This document shows positions 25,607 through 60,923 of a stretch of DNA of 64,000 nt, piece by piece (position 1 is the first letter of the stretch; each line of letters starts with the position of its first letter). The stretch covers positions 1-64,000 of the forward strand of contig CAJYJO010000003.1 of the NCBI GenBank assembly GCA_913774845.1, in the 5' to 3' direction. The position numbers and the translations under genes were made by a program. Below the pieces are notes generated by a model. It made no database searches. It had not been told where the DNA came from and saw only the letters and a program-made list of their open reading frames with translations. This DNA comes from an uncultured Microbacterium sp. GTDB lineage: Bacteria; Actinomycetota; Actinomycetes; Actinomycetales; Microbacteriaceae.

Positions 25607-26149
25607 ATGAGCCGCCCCCCTCTCGCCCGCGAAGCCGTCCTCGACGCTTTCACCCGCATCCTCGTCGACGACGGAGAGCGGGCGGCCACGATGGACGCCA
25701 CAGCGAAGGCCGCGGGTGTCTCGAAGGGCGGACTGCTCTACCACTTCTCCTCCAAGAGCGCCCTCGAAGCGGCGCTGGTCGACCGACTCGAACAGCTCGC
25801 GCGCGACGACGTCGACGAGATCGAACGCTCGACCGAGGGCGTCGTGGCCGCGCACCTGCGGTCGTCGCAGAACACCGGGTCGCCGCTCGACGTGACGATC
25901 CTCGCGGTCTCCCGACTCGCTCAGAACGGCAGCGATGCCGCCTCGGCATCGCTTCGACGTGTTCGTGAGCTCTGGGAGGACAGCCTGCGCTCGCATACGC
26001 GCGACGAGACCGCTCTGCAGATGGTGCTGCTGGTCAGCGACGGCTTGTACTTCAACGCAGTGCTCGATCTGAACGCCGTGCCCGGGCCGCAGCTCGAGGG
26101 GGCGGACCTCGACCGTCTCATCGACGCGGTCGTCGCGGCGACCACCTGA
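25607..26149 (+). CDS. TetR-family transcriptional regulator
   Basis: The 180-residue protein has a TetR helix-turn-helix at about residues 25-58 (MDATAKAAGVSKGGLLYHF) and an all-helical ligand domain (TetR_C-like, about residues 80-175). It probably represses the divergent DHA2 transporter and is released by its drug substrate. A GGAG ribosome site lies 6 nt before the ATG. The tandem-repeat array begins about 90 bp after its stop. Confidence 0.92.
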   Translation: MSRPPLAREAVLDAFTRILVDDGERAATMDATAKAAGVSKGGLLYHFSSKSALEAALVDRLEQLARDDVDEIERSTEGVVAAHLRSSQNTGSPLDVTILAVSRLAQNGSDAASASLRRVRELWEDSLRSHTRDETALQMVLLVSDGLYFNAVLDLNAVPGPQLEGADLDRLIDAVVAATT

Positions 26150-26242: not shown

Positions 26243-27450
26243 GGAGGAGATTCAGCGACGGGAGGACCGCCCGGGCCCCCGGCATCCTCCCCTCCCTAAC
26301 TCTCCTCCGCCCCGCCGGAGACACCCCGCGTCGCCCGCTGCGCGCAGCCCTCGGACGGGAGGAGAAACAGCGACGGGAGGACCAACCCAGCCCTTGGCAT
26401 CCTCCATCGCCCGATTCCCCTCCCCGCCGGGACACCCCGACTCACCCTCCCCCGCGCAGCCCCCGGACGGGAGGAGAAACAGCGACGGGAGGATCGACCA
26501 AGCCCCTGGCATCCTCCATCGCCCGAGTCCCCTCCCCGCCGGGACGCCCCGCACCGCCTGCTCTCCAGCGCAGCCCCGACGGGAGGAGAAATTGCGACGA
26601 GAGGACTACCCAGGCCCCCGGCATCCTGCCCCAGCTCTCCCCCCGCCCCCGCACGAAAGACACCGCATCGCCCTCCCCCGCGCCCAAGCGCAGCCCTCGG
26701 ATGGGAGGAGAAGCAGCGACCGGAGGACCGGCCGGGCCCCTGGCATCCTCCGCCGCCCGATTCCCCTCCTCGCCGGGACACCCCGCGTCGCCCTCCCACG
26801 CGCAGCCCCCGAACGGGAGGAGAAGCAACGACGGGAGGACCGACCAAGCCCTTGGCATCCTCCGCCGCCCGATTCCCCTCCTCGCCGGGACACCCCGCGT
26901 CGCCCTCACCCGAGCGCAGCCCGCGGACGGGAGGAGAGTCAGCGATGAAAGGACCGACCAAGTCCGTGACATCCTCCATCGCCCGATTCCCCTCGGTCAT
27001 GGCCGGTGACAGCCCGCATTGCCCGCTCCCGCGCGCAGCCCGGGACGGGAGGAGAAACAGCGACGGGAGGACCGGTCGCGCCCCTGCATCCTCCATCGCC
27101 CAACTCTCCTCCGCCCCGCCGGAGACAGCGCGCATCACCCTCACCCCGAGCGCAACCCCAGGACGGGAGGAGAAACAGCGACGGGAGGACGGGCCAGGCC
27201 CCCGGCATCCTCCCCTCCTCAACTCCGCCCCCCGCCCAGGAAACCCTGCATCGGAGGAAAAGCAGCGACGGAAGGACCCGCCGAGCCCCCGCCATCCTCC
27301 GCCGCCCGATTCCCCTCCTTGTCGGGGCACCCCGCGTCGCCCTCACCCGTGCAGCCCCCGGACGGGAGGAGAAACAGCGCCGGGAGGATCACCCCGGCCC
27401 GCGGCATCCTCCGCCGCACGATTCCCCTCCGCCCCGGCAAACCCGCACGC
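26243..27450. repeat. Array of 11 tandem repeats of about 112 bp
   Basis: Eleven diverged copies follow one another. Taking the word GGAGGAG as anchor, units begin at 26243, 26358, 26470, 26582, 26704, 26816, 26930, 27048, 27166, 27253 and 27365. The usual period is 112 bp (range 87-122). Each unit runs from a purine-rich block (GGAGGAGAAACAGCGACGGG, then AGGA) through a GGCATCCTCC word to a pyrimidine-rich block (CGCCCGATTCCCCTCC) and a GC-rich tail. The two blocks can pair as a long imperfect hairpin. Reading frames stay open on both strands only because stops are rare. The array lies between the TetR stop and the serA terminator. Origin and role are unknown. Confidence 0.92.
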
Positions 27451-27481: not shown

Positions 27482-27508
27482 AGAGGGGGCCGCCGAAGCG
27501 ACCCCCTA
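27482..27508 (-). terminator. Intrinsic terminator after serA
   Basis: On the minus strand TAGGGGGTCGCTTCGGCG pairs with its partner CCGCCCCCTC-like arm around a TTCG loop (GGGGGTCG-CTTC-GGCGGCCCCC), followed by TCTTCTTTT. It lies 16 bp after the serA stop and separates serA from the tandem array. Confidence 0.85.
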
Positions 27509-27523
27509 CGACGTTCCGAGGAC

Positions 27524-29128
27524 TCAGCCCTCGACGATCTCGATCTGCCGGAACAGGTCGGCGCCGACGGCCTCGCGCATCGCGCCGAGGATCTCGTCGG
27601 GCACCGGCGAGTCGACCGTGAGCACGGAGAGCGCGCGGCCAGTGGCATCCGGAGCCGCCACCTGCAGCCCCGCGATGTTGATACCGGCCTCGCCGAGCTT
27701 CTGACCGTAGATCGCGACGATGCCGGGGCGATCGGCGTAGCGCATGACGACGTGGTGCTGGACGATGGGCACCTCGATCTCGTAGCCGTTGATCGAGACG
27801 ACCTTGGGGACCATCCGCGTACCGGCGAGCGTGCCGGCGATCTCGAGGGTGGAGCCGTCGGCCAGCGTGCCGCGGAGGATCGTGATGTTGCGGTACAGCG
27901 GGCTCTCGGCCTCGACGACGAGGCGCGCATCGACACCGCGCTGCTCGGCGAAGAGCGGTGCGTTGACGTACGAGACGCTCTCGCTGACGATGCGGCTGAA
28001 GTAGCCCTTCAGGGCCGCGAGGCGGTAGACGCTCACGTCGTACTGAGCGAGCTCGCCGCGCACCTCGATCTCAAGCGAGGTCAGGGCGCTGTCGGCGAGG
28101 CCGCTGAAGAACTGGCCGAGCATCTCGACGAGCGCGATGCCGGGGCGCACGAACGGGTCGATCGCTCCGCCGGCGACGTTCACGGCATCCGGGACGAGGT
28201 CTCCCTCGAGCGCGAGCTTCACCGAGCGGGCGACGGAGACGCCCGCCTTCTCCTGCGCCTCTTCGGTGCTCGCGCCGAGGTGCGGGGTGACGACGACGTT
28301 CGGCAGGTCGAGGAGCTTTCGCGCGGGGCCGCCCTCGGCGGGGGGCTCCGTCGAGAACACATCGAGGCCGGCACCGGCGATCTCACCGGTCGTGAGGGCC
28401 TCGAAGAGCGCTTCCTCGTCGATGAGACCACCGCGGGCGACGTTGACGACGTACGCGGTCTTCTTCATGCGGCGCAACTGCTCGGCGCCGATCATCCCGG
28501 TCGTCTCGGGCGTCTTCGGCATGTGGATGGTGACGAAGTCGCTCTGCTCGAGCAGCTCGTCGAGCGAGACGAGCTGCACGCCGAGCTGCTGGGCCCGGGC
28601 GGCGGTGACGTAGGGGTCGTAGGCGATCACGCGCATGTCGAAGCCCTGCAGACGAGCCGCGATGAGCGCTCCGATGCGGCCGAGGCCGATGATGCCGATC
28701 GTCTTCTCGAACAGCTCCGTGCCGGTGAACGAGCTGCGCTTCCATAGGCCCTGCGCGAGCGAGGCGTGGGCGGCGGGAATGCGGCGAGCGAGGCTCAGCA
28801 CGTGGCCGACGGTGAGCTCGGCGGCCGAGATGATGTTGGAGGTCGGCGCGTTGACGACCATGACTCCCGCCGCGGTCGCCGACTTGATGTCGACGTTGTC
28901 GAGACCGACGCCGGCGCGGGCGACGACCTTGAGCGACGGCGCCGCGGCGAGGGCCTCGGCGTCGATCTGCGTGGCGGAGCGCACGAGCACCGCGTGCGCG
29001 TCGGCGAGAGCCGAGAGCAGCGCGGGGCGGTCGGTCCCGTCGACGCCTCGCACGTCGAAGTCGGGGCCGAGCGCGTCGATCGTGGCGGGAGAGAGTTCTT
29101 CGGCGATGAGCACGACGGGCTTCGTCAC
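27524..29128 (-). CDS. serA: D-3-phosphoglycerate dehydrogenase
   Basis: The 534-residue protein has the long form of the enzyme: substrate and NAD domains to about residue 310 (GLGRIGALIAARLQGFDMRV near 148), an intervening domain (about 320-450) and a C-terminal ACT domain (about 455-534) that binds serine for feedback inhibition. The active-site His is in TPHLGASTEEAQ near residue 283. It starts serine synthesis from 3-phosphoglycerate. It is transcribed as a single gene and ends at an intrinsic terminator. Confidence 0.96.
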   Translation of the reverse strand: MTKPVVLIAEELSPATIDALGPDFDVRGVDGTDRPALLSALADAHAVLVRSATQIDAEALAAAPSLKVVARAGVGLDNVDIKSATAAGVMVVNAPTSNIISAAELTVGHVLSLARRIPAAHASLAQGLWKRSSFTGTELFEKTIGIIGLGRIGALIAARLQGFDMRVIAYDPYVTAARAQQLGVQLVSLDELLEQSDFVTIHMPKTPETTGMIGAEQLRRMKKTAYVVNVARGGLIDEEALFEALTTGEIAGAGLDVFSTEPPAEGGPARKLLDLPNVVVTPHLGASTEEAQEKAGVSVARSVKLALEGDLVPDAVNVAGGAIDPFVRPGIALVEMLGQFFSGLADSALTSLEIEVRGELAQYDVSVYRLAALKGYFSRIVSESVSYVNAPLFAEQRGVDARLVVEAESPLYRNITILRGTLADGSTLEIAGTLAGTRMVPKVVSINGYEIEVPIVQHHVVMRYADRPGIVAIYGQKLGEAGINIAGLQVAAPDATGRALSVLTVDSPVPDEILGAMREAVGADLFRQIEIVEG

Positions 29129-30331: not shown

Positions 30332-31548
<1,217 letters not shown>

Positions 31549-40535: not shown

Positions 40536-40690
40536 GGTCCCTGAGCCTGTCGAACGGCACAACGGCATCATCACGACTCCCTCACAGACGGAACGAAGGT
40601 CCCTGAGCCCGTCGAACGGCACAACGGCATCATCAGGACTCCCTCGCAGACGGAACGGAGGTCCCTGAGCCTGTCGAAGGGACCGGGCCC
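40536..40690. repeat. 62-bp tandem repeats with CTGAGCCTGTCGAA core
   Basis: GGTCCCTGAGC begins at 40536, 40598 and 40660, exactly 62 bp apart. Each unit also holds an AGGACTCC word and CGGCACAACGGCATCATC. Only the last copy keeps the full AGGGACC right arm; the others read ACGGCAC there. The array separates scoA-like and scoB-like genes and runs into the 3' end of the subunit A gene. Confidence 0.92.
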
Positions 40691-58221: not shown

Positions 58222-58373
58222 ACCCAGGTGGCTGAGCCCGTCGAAGCCGTCGGGCCCCCGACCCAGGTGGCTGAGCCTGTCGAAGCCACCGGCACCCGCA
58301 GCTGACCGGAGCCTTCGACAAGCTGAAGGCCCTCCCAACCCAGATGGCTGAGCCTGTCGAAGCCACCGGCACC
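58222..58373. repeat. CTGAGCCTGTCGAAG-family hairpins with changed stems
   Basis: Three direct copies (near 58227, 58266 and 58343) carry arms GGTGGCT and AGCCACC around the loop GAGCCTGTCGA. One inverted copy (about 58310-58331) reads with arms GGCCTT-type. The loop is the same as in the 31.4-kb and 40.5-kb copies while the arms differ and still pair. The array fills the ku-ligD gap. Confidence 0.9.
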
Positions 58374-58430
58374 CGCGCCGCACCGCAACCCCCTCGGCAT
58401 CCGGGACCTCACCCGCCCTACGCTGGGGCG

Positions 58431-60923
58431 ATGGCGGAGCAGACGGTGCGCATCGACGGCCGCCGGCTGCGCCTGTCGAACCTCGACAAGGTGCTGTACC
58501 CCGAGACGGGGACCACCAAGGGCGAGATCATCGACTACTACTCGCGTATCGCTCCGCTGCTGCTCCCCCACGTGCGCGATCGTCCCGTCACCCGCAAGCG
58601 CTGGCCCGACGGCGTCGGCACCGAGGCCGATCCCGTCGACGCGTTCTTCGCGAAGGCCCTCGAGCCCGGCGCCCCCGCGTGGGTGCGGCGATTCCCCATC
58701 GACCACTCCTCCGGGGCGAAGGACTACCCGCTGGTCGACGACCTGCCCACGCTCGTCTACCTCGCGCAGGTCGCGAGCCTCGAATTGCACGTGCCGCAGT
58801 GGCGGTTCGATGCCGCAGGGACCAGGCGGAACCCCGACCGGATCGTGCTCGACCTCGACCCGGGCCCGGGAGTGGGTCTCGCCGAGTGCGCCGAGGTCGC
58901 CCGGTGGGCGCGCGCCATCCTCACCGACATCGGCCTCGAGCCGCTGCCGGTCACCAGCGGCAGCAAGGGGATCCACCTCTACGCGCACCTCGACGGCTCG
59001 CAGTCCAGCGACGCGGTCAGCGCCGTCGCGAAGGAACTCGCCCGCGCCATCGAGGCCGACCATCCTGACCTTGTCCTCAGTCAGATGGCCAAGGCCGCCC
59101 GCCCCGGCAAGGTGTTCATCGACTGGAGCCAGAACAACGGCTCCAAGACGACCATTGCGCCGTATTCGCTCCGGGGGCGCGCGCACCCCACCGTCGCCGC
59201 GCCGCGCACCTGGGCCGAGCTCGACGATCCCGACCTGCGCCATCTGCTGTTCAGCGAGGTCCTGGAGCGCCACGACGACCCCCTCGCGCCGGTGGAGCGC
59301 GACAGCGGACCCCTGCGCTCCTACATCGCCAAGCGCACCGCCGGGAAGACACCCGAGCCCGTACCCGACGCCCCGCACGGCGACCCCGCCCCCGACGGGC
59401 TGCCGCGTTTCGTCATCCAGGAGCATCACGCGACGCGCCTGCACTGGGATCTGCGGCTCGAACACCACGGCGTGCTCGCCAGCTGGGCCGTGCCGAAGGG
59501 CGTGCCCTCGACGACCGCGAAGAACAGCCTCGCCGTACAGACCGAGGATCATCCGATGCAGTACCTGGACTTCGCCGGAGAGATTCCCCGCGGCGAGTAC
59601 GGTGCGGGGTCGATGACGGTCTGGGACACGGGCACCTACGAGCTCGAGAAGTGGCGCGACGACGAGGTGATCGCCACCCTCGAGGGGCGCCCCGACGGCC
59701 CGCTCGGACGCGTGCGCCTCGCCCTCATCCGCACGCAGGGATCGGGCGAGAAGTCGCAGTGGCTGCTGCACCGGATGAAGACGGATGCCACCGGCGCACC
59801 GCAGCACGACGGCGCCGCCGTGGTGCCGCGGGCGGACGGCGCCGCGGTGGCGCAGCAGCCGGGCGGCGCCGCAGCGCCGGCGGCCGATGGCGCGGCGACG
59901 CCCAGCGACACCGGCGCGACACCTGGGACCGCCTCCCCCGCCTCGCCGACCGCGGCGGAGTTGCGGCCCATGCTCGCCACCTCCGCGACCCCGGGGCTGG
60001 CGCGCGCCGCCGCGGAGCGCTGGGGCCGGGCGTGGGTGGAGATGAAGTGGGACGGCATCCGCGGCATCGGCCTGTGGGACGGGGAGCGACTACGCCTGCG
60101 CTCCCGCAACGGCAACGACCTCACCGCCGCCTACCCCGAGCTGACCGCCGCCGACCTCGGGCTCGGCCCCGCCCCGGCGGTCGTCGACGGTGAGATCGTC
60201 GCCCTCGACGACCAGGGCCGCCCGAGCTTCCCCCTGCTGCAGAAGCGCATGAACCTGGCGCAGCCTCGCGAGATCGAGCGGGAGACGAAGCGCACCCCGG
60301 TGCAGCTCTACCTGTTCGACGTGCTCAGTGCGGAGGGGCGAGATGTGGCATCCCTCCCCCTCCAGGAACGTCGCGAGATCCTCGAGCGACTCGCCGCGGA
60401 CGCCGGCGCCCCTGTCGTCGTCCCGCCGGTCTTCGACGACGTGGATGCCGCGGTCGCCACGAGCGGCCGGTTCGGCCTCGAAGGGGTCGTGGTGAAAGAC
60501 CCGACCTCGACCTACCGTCGTGGCGTGCGATCGGAGCAATGGCTGAAGGTGAAGCACTCCCGCACCCAGGAGGTGGTGATCGGCGGCATCCGGCCGGGCA
60601 AGGGCAACCGCTCGGGGACGATCGGTTCACTGCTCGTGGGCCTGCCCACCGCCGAGGGGCTGCAGTATGCCGGTCGGGTCGGTTCCGGGTTCGGCGAGCA
60701 GACCCTTGCGCGGCTCACCGCGTTGCTCGAGCCGCTTCGCGCCGACGCCGACCCGTTCGTCGGCGTGCCGCGCGAGGACGCCCGCGACGCCCTCTGGGTG
60801 CGCCCCGAACTCGTCGGCGAGGTCGAGTTCGCGGAGTTCACCCCGGGCGGCATCCTGCGCCAGGCACGGTGGCGCGGCCTGCGGCCCGACAAGCATCCGG
60901 GCGAGGTGGTTCGGGAGGACTGA
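58431..60923 (+). CDS. ligD: ATP-dependent DNA ligase LigD (polymerase, phosphoesterase, ligase)
   Basis: The 830-residue enzyme has all three parts in the mycobacterial order: polymerase/primase (about residues 1-295, catalytic acids in VLDLDPGPG near 140), 3'-phosphoesterase (about 325-465, HHATRLHWDLRLEHHG) and ATP-dependent ligase (about 520-830, with adenylated Lys539 in EMKWDGIRG). It fills, trims and seals broken ends held by Ku. TACGCT (58419-58424) is 6 nt before the ATG, so the message is probably leaderless. An Ala/Pro-rich linker joins the last two domains. Confidence 0.97.
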   Translation: MAEQTVRIDGRRLRLSNLDKVLYPETGTTKGEIIDYYSRIAPLLLPHVRDRPVTRKRWPDGVGTEADPVDAFFAKALEPGAPAWVRRFPIDHSSGAKDYPLVDDLPTLVYLAQVASLELHVPQWRFDAAGTRRNPDRIVLDLDPGPGVGLAECAEVARWARAILTDIGLEPLPVTSGSKGIHLYAHLDGSQSSDAVSAVAKELARAIEADHPDLVLSQMAKAARPGKVFIDWSQNNGSKTTIAPYSLRGRAHPTVAAPRTWAELDDPDLRHLLFSEVLERHDDPLAPVERDSGPLRSYIAKRTAGKTPEPVPDAPHGDPAPDGLPRFVIQEHHATRLHWDLRLEHHGVLASWAVPKGVPSTTAKNSLAVQTEDHPMQYLDFAGEIPRGEYGAGSMTVWDTGTYELEKWRDDEVIATLEGRPDGPLGRVRLALIRTQGSGEKSQWLLHRMKTDATGAPQHDGAAVVPRADGAAVAQQPGGAAAPAADGAATPSDTGATPGTASPASPTAAELRPMLATSATPGLARAAAERWGRAWVEMKWDGIRGIGLWDGERLRLRSRNGNDLTAAYPELTAADLGLGPAPAVVDGEIVALDDQGRPSFPLLQKRMNLAQPREIERETKRTPVQLYLFDVLSAEGRDVASLPLQERREILERLAADAGAPVVVPPVFDDVDAAVATSGRFGLEGVVVKDPTSTYRRGVRSEQWLKVKHSRTQEVVIGGIRPGKGNRSGTIGSLLVGLPTAEGLQYAGRVGSGFGEQTLARLTALLEPLRADADPFVGVPREDARDALWVRPELVGEVEFAEFTPGGILRQARWRGLRPDKHPGEVVRED

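Follow-up and report, generated by a model that had tools for sequence, protein, structure and literature searches.

The 64,000-nucleotide stretch of DNA analysed here (the window; contig CAJYJO010000003.1 of an uncultured Microbacterium sp., positions 1 to 64,000) contains a tandem array of eleven palindromic units at 26243 to 27430 on the minus strand, and the element repeated in it also flanks genes for AbiEi-DUF559 nucleases in other genomes of the genus. On one side of the array lies a gene for a TetR-family regulator (25607 to 26149, plus strand; PF00440, E = 4e-9), which converges on the array and is a neighbour outside the repeat system. On the other side lies serA, encoding D-3-phosphoglycerate dehydrogenase (27524 to 29128, minus strand; PF02826, PF00389 and PF19304), with the array located 3' of the gene. 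A terminator-like hairpin of serA is located at 27507 to 27484 (minus strand), and the array sits past this hairpin in the serA direction.

The tandem array and its units

The tandem array is real, as judged by Tandem Repeats Finder (TRF) and by a covariance model of the conserved core, designated R1. TRF returned a period of 112 bp from 26243 to 27213 (8.4 copies, 76% matches, score 889), and R1 recovered all 11 units, each with a higher score on the minus strand. The initial annotation had described eleven tandem copies of a hairpin-forming 112-bp unit between the TetR gene and the serA terminator, and both the number and the placement, the latter based on the Pfam assignments and the terminator-like hairpin, were confirmed. 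The unit length needed correction, since the period is indeed 112 bp but conservation is confined to a core of 66 bp, which is followed by a locus-specific spacer of approximately 46 to 60 bp (shortened to approximately 21 bp after unit 9).

The cores, all on the minus strand, occupy 26243 to 26308 (unit 1, the 66-bp four-box palindrome, 74.0 bits with R1), 26358 to 26423 (unit 2, 75.7 bits), 26470 to 26535 (unit 3, 71.2 bits), 26582 to 26643 (unit 4, degenerate, 36.3 bits), 26704 to 26769 (unit 5, 77.2 bits), 26816 to 26881 (unit 6, 73.1 bits), 26930 to 26995 (unit 7, diverged, 50.9 bits), 27048 to 27112 (unit 8, 65 bp, 59.7 bits), 27166 to 27231 (unit 9, with a degenerate outer box, 52.5 bits), 27253 to 27318 (unit 10, 66.5 bits) and 27365 to 27430 (unit 11, 68.8 bits). 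The successive unit-to-unit distances are 115, 112, 112, 122, 112, 114, 118, 118, 87 and 112 bp. The mean identity among the 11 units is 75.7%, a count in which units 4 and 8 are slightly off register, and this divergence speaks against a misassembled repeat. When folded as single-stranded DNA (ssDNA), nine of the 11 units gave z scores from -1.15 to -4.65, the lowest being that of unit 1, but the units at 26582 (z +1.16, no better than shuffles) and 27166 (z -0.72) did not stand out. The motif GGATGCC, which reads GGCATCC on the plus strand and had been noticed in several units, is carried by eight of the 11. The array had also been described as lacking the spacing of clustered regularly interspaced short palindromic repeats (CRISPR), and indeed its spacers recur along with the unit at the 112-bp period, instead of being unrelated to each other.

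A dispersed four-box palindrome

The core follows the pattern GGAGG-13-GGAGG-20-CCTCC-13-CCTCC and is symmetric, with column i opposite column 67-i and boxes at columns 1-5, 19-23, 44-48 and 62-66. In the window genome the boxes read GGAGG, GGAGG, CCTCC and CCTCC, in rows that were picked by a pattern requiring these boxes. Further copies in the same genome were found with a 112-base query, and with the core model at least 35 copies were found at 13 loci, including further arrays of 6, 5, 3 and 2 units. Element matches were present in 102 of 149 sampled Microbacterium genomes, which removed the concern that the units might be confined to one assembly. In the window genome, two units of the same array are more similar (identity 0.782, n = 75) than two units of different arrays (0.648, n = 225), indicating that arrays expand or homogenise locally.

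The element is also found at the orthologous site in other species. Using the core model, an element was detected 3' of serA at four of 30 serA loci, the window included, with 11 copies here and one copy each in genomes G095, G006 and G081; several other serA loci are visibly empty at this position. Because the orthologous site holds a single copy in three other species, the array in the window has grown locally from one older copy. Taken together with the 13 loci and the distribution over the genus, this supports one of the interpretations offered in the initial annotation, namely that a palindromic element with a dispersed distribution has multiplied here. In genome G007 (locus L204), a TCAG/CTGA-type stretch, recognised by eye and resembling the elements of another nuclease class, is located 3' of serA, which suggests that different classes may use one intergenic site.

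The boxes differ between genomes. CGAGG was present in all four boxes of all five elements read in G077, GTAGG boxes in all five elements of G090, and GCAGG in the single element read in G060. In an alignment of 30 elements from 28 genomes, the four boxes were identical in 24, and thus the four boxes of an element change in concert. They stand at both feet of the hairpin and again inside it, as GGAGG, CGAGG, GCAGG and TTCGG types.

The same 30-element alignment, for which 26 elements were obtained with R1 and four with a palindrome script, was used to analyse pairing. It contained 115 cells with compensatory changes compared to 52.9 ± 6.0 after shuffling, a number that none of 500 shuffles reached, and slid controls gave 45 at most. 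These compensatory changes indicate that the palindrome has been preserved over species divergence. As the elements were gathered by structure-aware searches, this way of selecting them favours pairing, and the slid and shuffled controls remove that effect only partly. The initial annotation had proposed covariation between the two blocks as a check on the fold; it was absent from a first alignment of 27 elements, 20 of them from the window genome, in which shuffles beat the observed values, but strong in the alignment from 28 genomes.

A preserved hairpin could function as RNA, either as a terminator, a 3'-end stabiliser or a small structured RNA, the last of which had been suggested in the initial annotation. 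The three single-copy relatives and the array are all positioned 3' of serA and share its orientation, and in the window genome 79 G-T wobbles were counted on one strand against 9 on the other (25 units, which are related copies, from the arrays in the window and at L009-L011 and L013), as would fit a transcript. This asymmetry has no strong counterpart across species, where 37 G-T wobbles were found against 28 A-C mismatches, in orientations mostly set by a model that itself favours G-T, and where the split per element was mildly overdispersed (p = 0.019). Such a small preference for G-U pairs fits a palindrome in DNA better than one in RNA. In addition, Rfam gave no match to the array at the gathering score (tmRNA and tRNAs being its sole matches in the window), the terminator-like hairpin of serA precedes the array, and by eye elements also occur between divergent genes (C13:37 kb) and ahead of a dnaX-like gene. 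A function as RNA hairpin is therefore very improbable, and the suggestion of small structured RNAs is not supported.

AbiEi-DUF559 nucleases flanked by the element

Elements recur in pairs approximately 1.05 kb apart, and in seven of the nine pairs whose inner open reading frames (ORFs) were examined they enclose a gene for a protein of 274 to 284 aa with a C-terminal DUF559 domain, assigned by Pfam in three cases. The initial annotation had also suggested a nucleoid-protein or recombination site; the protein associated with the elements is a nuclease, a link that was missed there. Overall, the interpretation in the initial annotation is partly supported. The N-terminal portion of the protein, of winged-helix and AbiEi-like type, is joined to a PD-(D/E)XK nuclease of the Vsr type. 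Its structure model matches AbiEi as well as the Vsr/I-Bth0305I fold, including the fold of the Vsr catalytic domain, and beyond these two groups the VIA-align matches were mostly assorted winged helices. In sequence searches, the PDB gave weak matches only (3r3p, E = 0.15), PADLOC gave weak AbiEi matches in two of three nuclease proteins, none of these three matched NCBIfam, and a single nuclease query had no match in plasmid and phage collections. Pfam lists DUF559 as a domain of unknown function.

Relatives of the nuclease were found in 143 of the 149 Microbacterium genomes, with 1 to 10 per genome. An R1 match (E ≤ 0.001, within 1.5 kb) was present at 21 of the 30 best nuclease loci and, after removal of seven query rows that had first been found via elements, at 14 of 23, compared to the four of 30 serA loci mentioned above. 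Nuclease loci with other boxes carry palindromes of the same grammar, with a box spacing of mostly 18 or 19. Motifs shared by the left and right flanks were scored for AbiEi-DUF559 loci taken from named records (80 loci, two of which were dropped because the flanks were too short). A shared motif with a score of at least 14 was present at 55 of 78 loci, against 36 of 624 cross-locus pairs, none of 78 pairs from inside the genes and two of 65 control ORFs; most of the examined nuclease genes are flanked by elements of the same geometry. An earlier version of this test with 44 loci gave a mean of 27.9 for own pairs versus 13.8, with orthologous loci often outranking the own pair. Among 23 loci from outside Microbacterium, 12 shared a flank motif at this threshold (400-bp flanks), against one of 162 cross pairs over all 27 loci; among these 12, L230 and L233 look orthologous, and some of the shared motifs are not four-box palindromes. 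One DUF559 gene from another family (L242 in G036) is located between near-perfect 60-bp palindromes that differ at one symmetric pair.

If the nuclease reads the boxes, an unusual box in the dispersed elements of a genome should recur beside one of its nuclease genes. In three of the four genomes tested for this, the matching box was indeed present on both sides of a nuclease gene: CGAGG at L137 in G077, GCAGG at L142 in G060, and GTAGG at L145 in G090, where one inner box reads GGAGG. The fourth genome, G115, did not show such a match.

The region between purM, which carries AIR synthase domains, and a conserved divergent gene shows that element and nuclease come and go at one site. It is empty in G086 and G027 (95-96 bp, no element), contains one element without nuclease in G067, and is occupied by cassettes of element, nuclease and element of 1278 to 1694 bp in G081, G093, G009 and G078. 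In G115 only a remnant-like stretch was seen by eye.

The reading that we favour, and that is probably correct, is that the array in the window arose by tandem amplification, at this site, of a dispersed four-box palindrome, which resembles a hairpin of paired repetitive extragenic palindromic (REP) sequences (REPIN) and is tied to AbiEi-DUF559 nucleases. The arrangement would be comparable to that of REPtrons, with an unrelated enzyme moving the repeat. In this mechanism the AbiEi-like N-terminal part would bind the boxes, the Vsr-like part would nick or cut the palindrome as a dyad, a cruciform or a single-strand hairpin, and repair of the break or copying might then spread elements to other intergenic sites and duplicate them in tandem. 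Whether this extends to a widespread, undescribed class of repeat systems in the Actinomycetales generally, in which AbiEi-DUF559 nucleases of the Vsr fold recognise their own palindromes, copy them and increase their number, and in which the box diversifies between nucleases, is in our judgement an evenly balanced question.

The main rival explanation is that the palindromes are autoregulatory operators to which AbiEi-DUF559 binds, that the dispersed copies are regulatory sites or decoys, and that the role of the nuclease lies in defence and not in moving repeats. AbiEi proteins bind inverted repeats in their own promoters, which agrees with the AbiEi antitoxin fold of the N-terminal part, and boxes that differ between many paralogues, even inside one genome, would suit operators too. 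However, elements border the gene at both ends, including the region beyond the stop codon, the dispersed copies occur where two genes converge, the window being one example, and form tandem arrays of 5, 6 and 11 units, and at purM whole cassettes are present or absent. For these reasons we consider the operator explanation rather unlikely.

Nuclease and repeats might also be carried along by a third factor, such as a transposase or recombinase that escaped recognition and moves whatever is located between two palindromes, in the manner of miniature inverted-repeat transposable elements (MITEs). The element-only and cassette states at the purM site would be expected in that case, and two of the nine element pairs approximately 1 kb apart (L064 and L083) enclose other genes, a cyclase-like ORF (by eye) in G090 and another gene in G077, which also weighs against our preferred reading. 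Yet matched flanks around DUF559 genes are found repeatedly, both throughout the genus and in other families, together with box matching, and Y1_Tnp, the one transposase family searched for, was absent from the 35 genomes of the genus that were covered. We therefore assign little probability to such a third factor.

Several other observations count against a repeat moved by the nuclease. The draft genome to which the window belongs yielded no cognate GGAGG nuclease. This genome has two DUF559 genes, neither of which adjoins a clear four-box GGAGG element, and the closer one (L119, G000:C32:28034-28855) is flanked by palindromes with a different box, of the TCGGA type. Contig C33 of this genome stops approximately 93 bp before purM, the site at which G006, G095, G081, G093, G009 and G078 hold a nuclease with GGAGG elements, and the cognate nuclease either lies within the gap that the assembly leaves next to purM or has been lost. 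G115 has GGAGG elements, yet no GGAGG-flanked nuclease was found among its three DUF559 genes. At 23 of the 78 DUF559 loci no shared flank motif reached the threshold. A joint score for left and right elements did not separate own from cross pairs, with 10 of 80 loci above the 95% level of the cross pairs, because genuine elements with similar boxes are present in the cross pairs as well. Mutual information of box and residue, calculated for the loci to which a box could be assigned (43 of 80, including 24 with GGAGG), peaked around residues 100-106, outside the winged helix, and is confounded by phylogeny. Target-site duplications were not definable, and the empty and occupied purM sites are too diverged to set the boundary to the base. 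Finally, none of the four indels of at least 40 bp between G162 and G073, two species at 94-95% identity, was an element in the aligned blocks of a 200-kb stretch, and for this reason turnover of the element seems slow.

Relation to known repeat systems

Arrays of bacterial interspersed mosaic elements (BIME-2) in Escherichia coli arise by local tandem expansion and have locus-specific linkers. The arrays described here are alike in their local expansion, as reflected by the higher identity within than between arrays, but differ in core, boxes and partner enzyme. The Vsr-like homing endonuclease I-Bth0305I, which we take to belong to the EDxHD family, shares the nuclease fold; in our case the gene is part of an intergenic cassette flanked by palindromes, there are dispersed repeats without a gene, and the N-terminal part is AbiEi-like. 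EDxHD homing endonucleases cleave alleles that lack the insertion and home into them; what was observed here is site polymorphism. Compared to AbiE toxin-antitoxin systems, in which the gene for the AbiEi antitoxin adjoins that for the AbiEii toxin, the AbiEi-like part is here fused to a nuclease.

The closest parallel is provided by REP sequences or REPINs with REP-associated tyrosine transposases (RAYTs, also TnpA-REP). In PMC3116915, PMC3686654, PMC8266576 and PMC3733652, REPtrons are described as dispersed short imperfect palindromes with a flanked cognate gene, class-specific tags that co-vary with this gene, orphan repeats and tandem arrays. Dispersal (the copy and genome numbers given above), a flanked gene, a class-specific sequence that co-varies with it, orphan repeats and arrays are shared with the present system. 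The REP tag, a tetranucleotide of the GTAG type, stands at one foot of the hairpin, and the GTAGG box of G090 contains GTAG. The differences are the four boxes, the mostly 66-bp frame with an 18-bp box spacing, and the enzyme, an AbiEi-like and Vsr-fold nuclease instead of a Y1 HUH protein. We give next to no credence to the possibility that these are classical, BIME-like REP/RAYT repeats with an overlooked transposase: the arrangement is the same and two of the boxes, GGAGG and GTAGG, are similar to the tags of REPs, but the flanked gene has another fold. Membership of REP/RAYT was rejected, as no Y1 HUH gene (PF01797, Y1_Tnp) was present in the 35 genomes of the genus that were searched, that of the window included, although five of 14 control genomes were positive.

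Many bacteria hold palindromic repeats without a known mobiliser; an example stated in PMC3733652 is that of the CGTC-tagged REPs, which lack a dedicated RAYT transposase. Both these and the present elements are palindromic, whereas here a candidate dedicated enzyme exists and the tag is a doubled 5-nt box. Searches of an open-access library, judged from the listed results, revealed no description of a nuclease-repeat pair of this kind (subscription papers and bioRxiv preprints fall outside this scope). They gave no paper joining DUF559 to inverted repeats, to AbiEi, or to a transposon plus endonuclease, and the papers found for DUF559 and palindromic repeats showed no link to such a system in their titles and abstract openings. 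On our reading, AbiEi-DUF559 proteins, which do not belong to the HUH superfamily, are a class of candidate enzymes for such repeats of Actinobacteria, and part of DUF559 would gain a function. The doubled box may represent a built-in specificity code, which is testable by box swapping. If the wider class of repeat systems considered above is real, the REP/RAYT strategy would have been invented twice, independently.

Beside an element in G162 (L168, G162:C1:60608) there is a region of approximately 1.4 kb with a 452-aa frame, LytR-CpsA-like by eye, that is missing in G073 (L167). The window also contains a second, unrelated dispersed repeat, TTCGACAGGCTCAG, at 31385-31543, 40541-40678 and 58232-58480, with 11 matches (at most one mismatch) against 0.02 expected, partly in tandem with periods of 43 and 62 bp. 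A 93-bp indel between G073 and G162 bears a motif similar to TTCGACAGGCTCAG, which suggests that this second repeat may have a higher activity than the element with GGAGG boxes.
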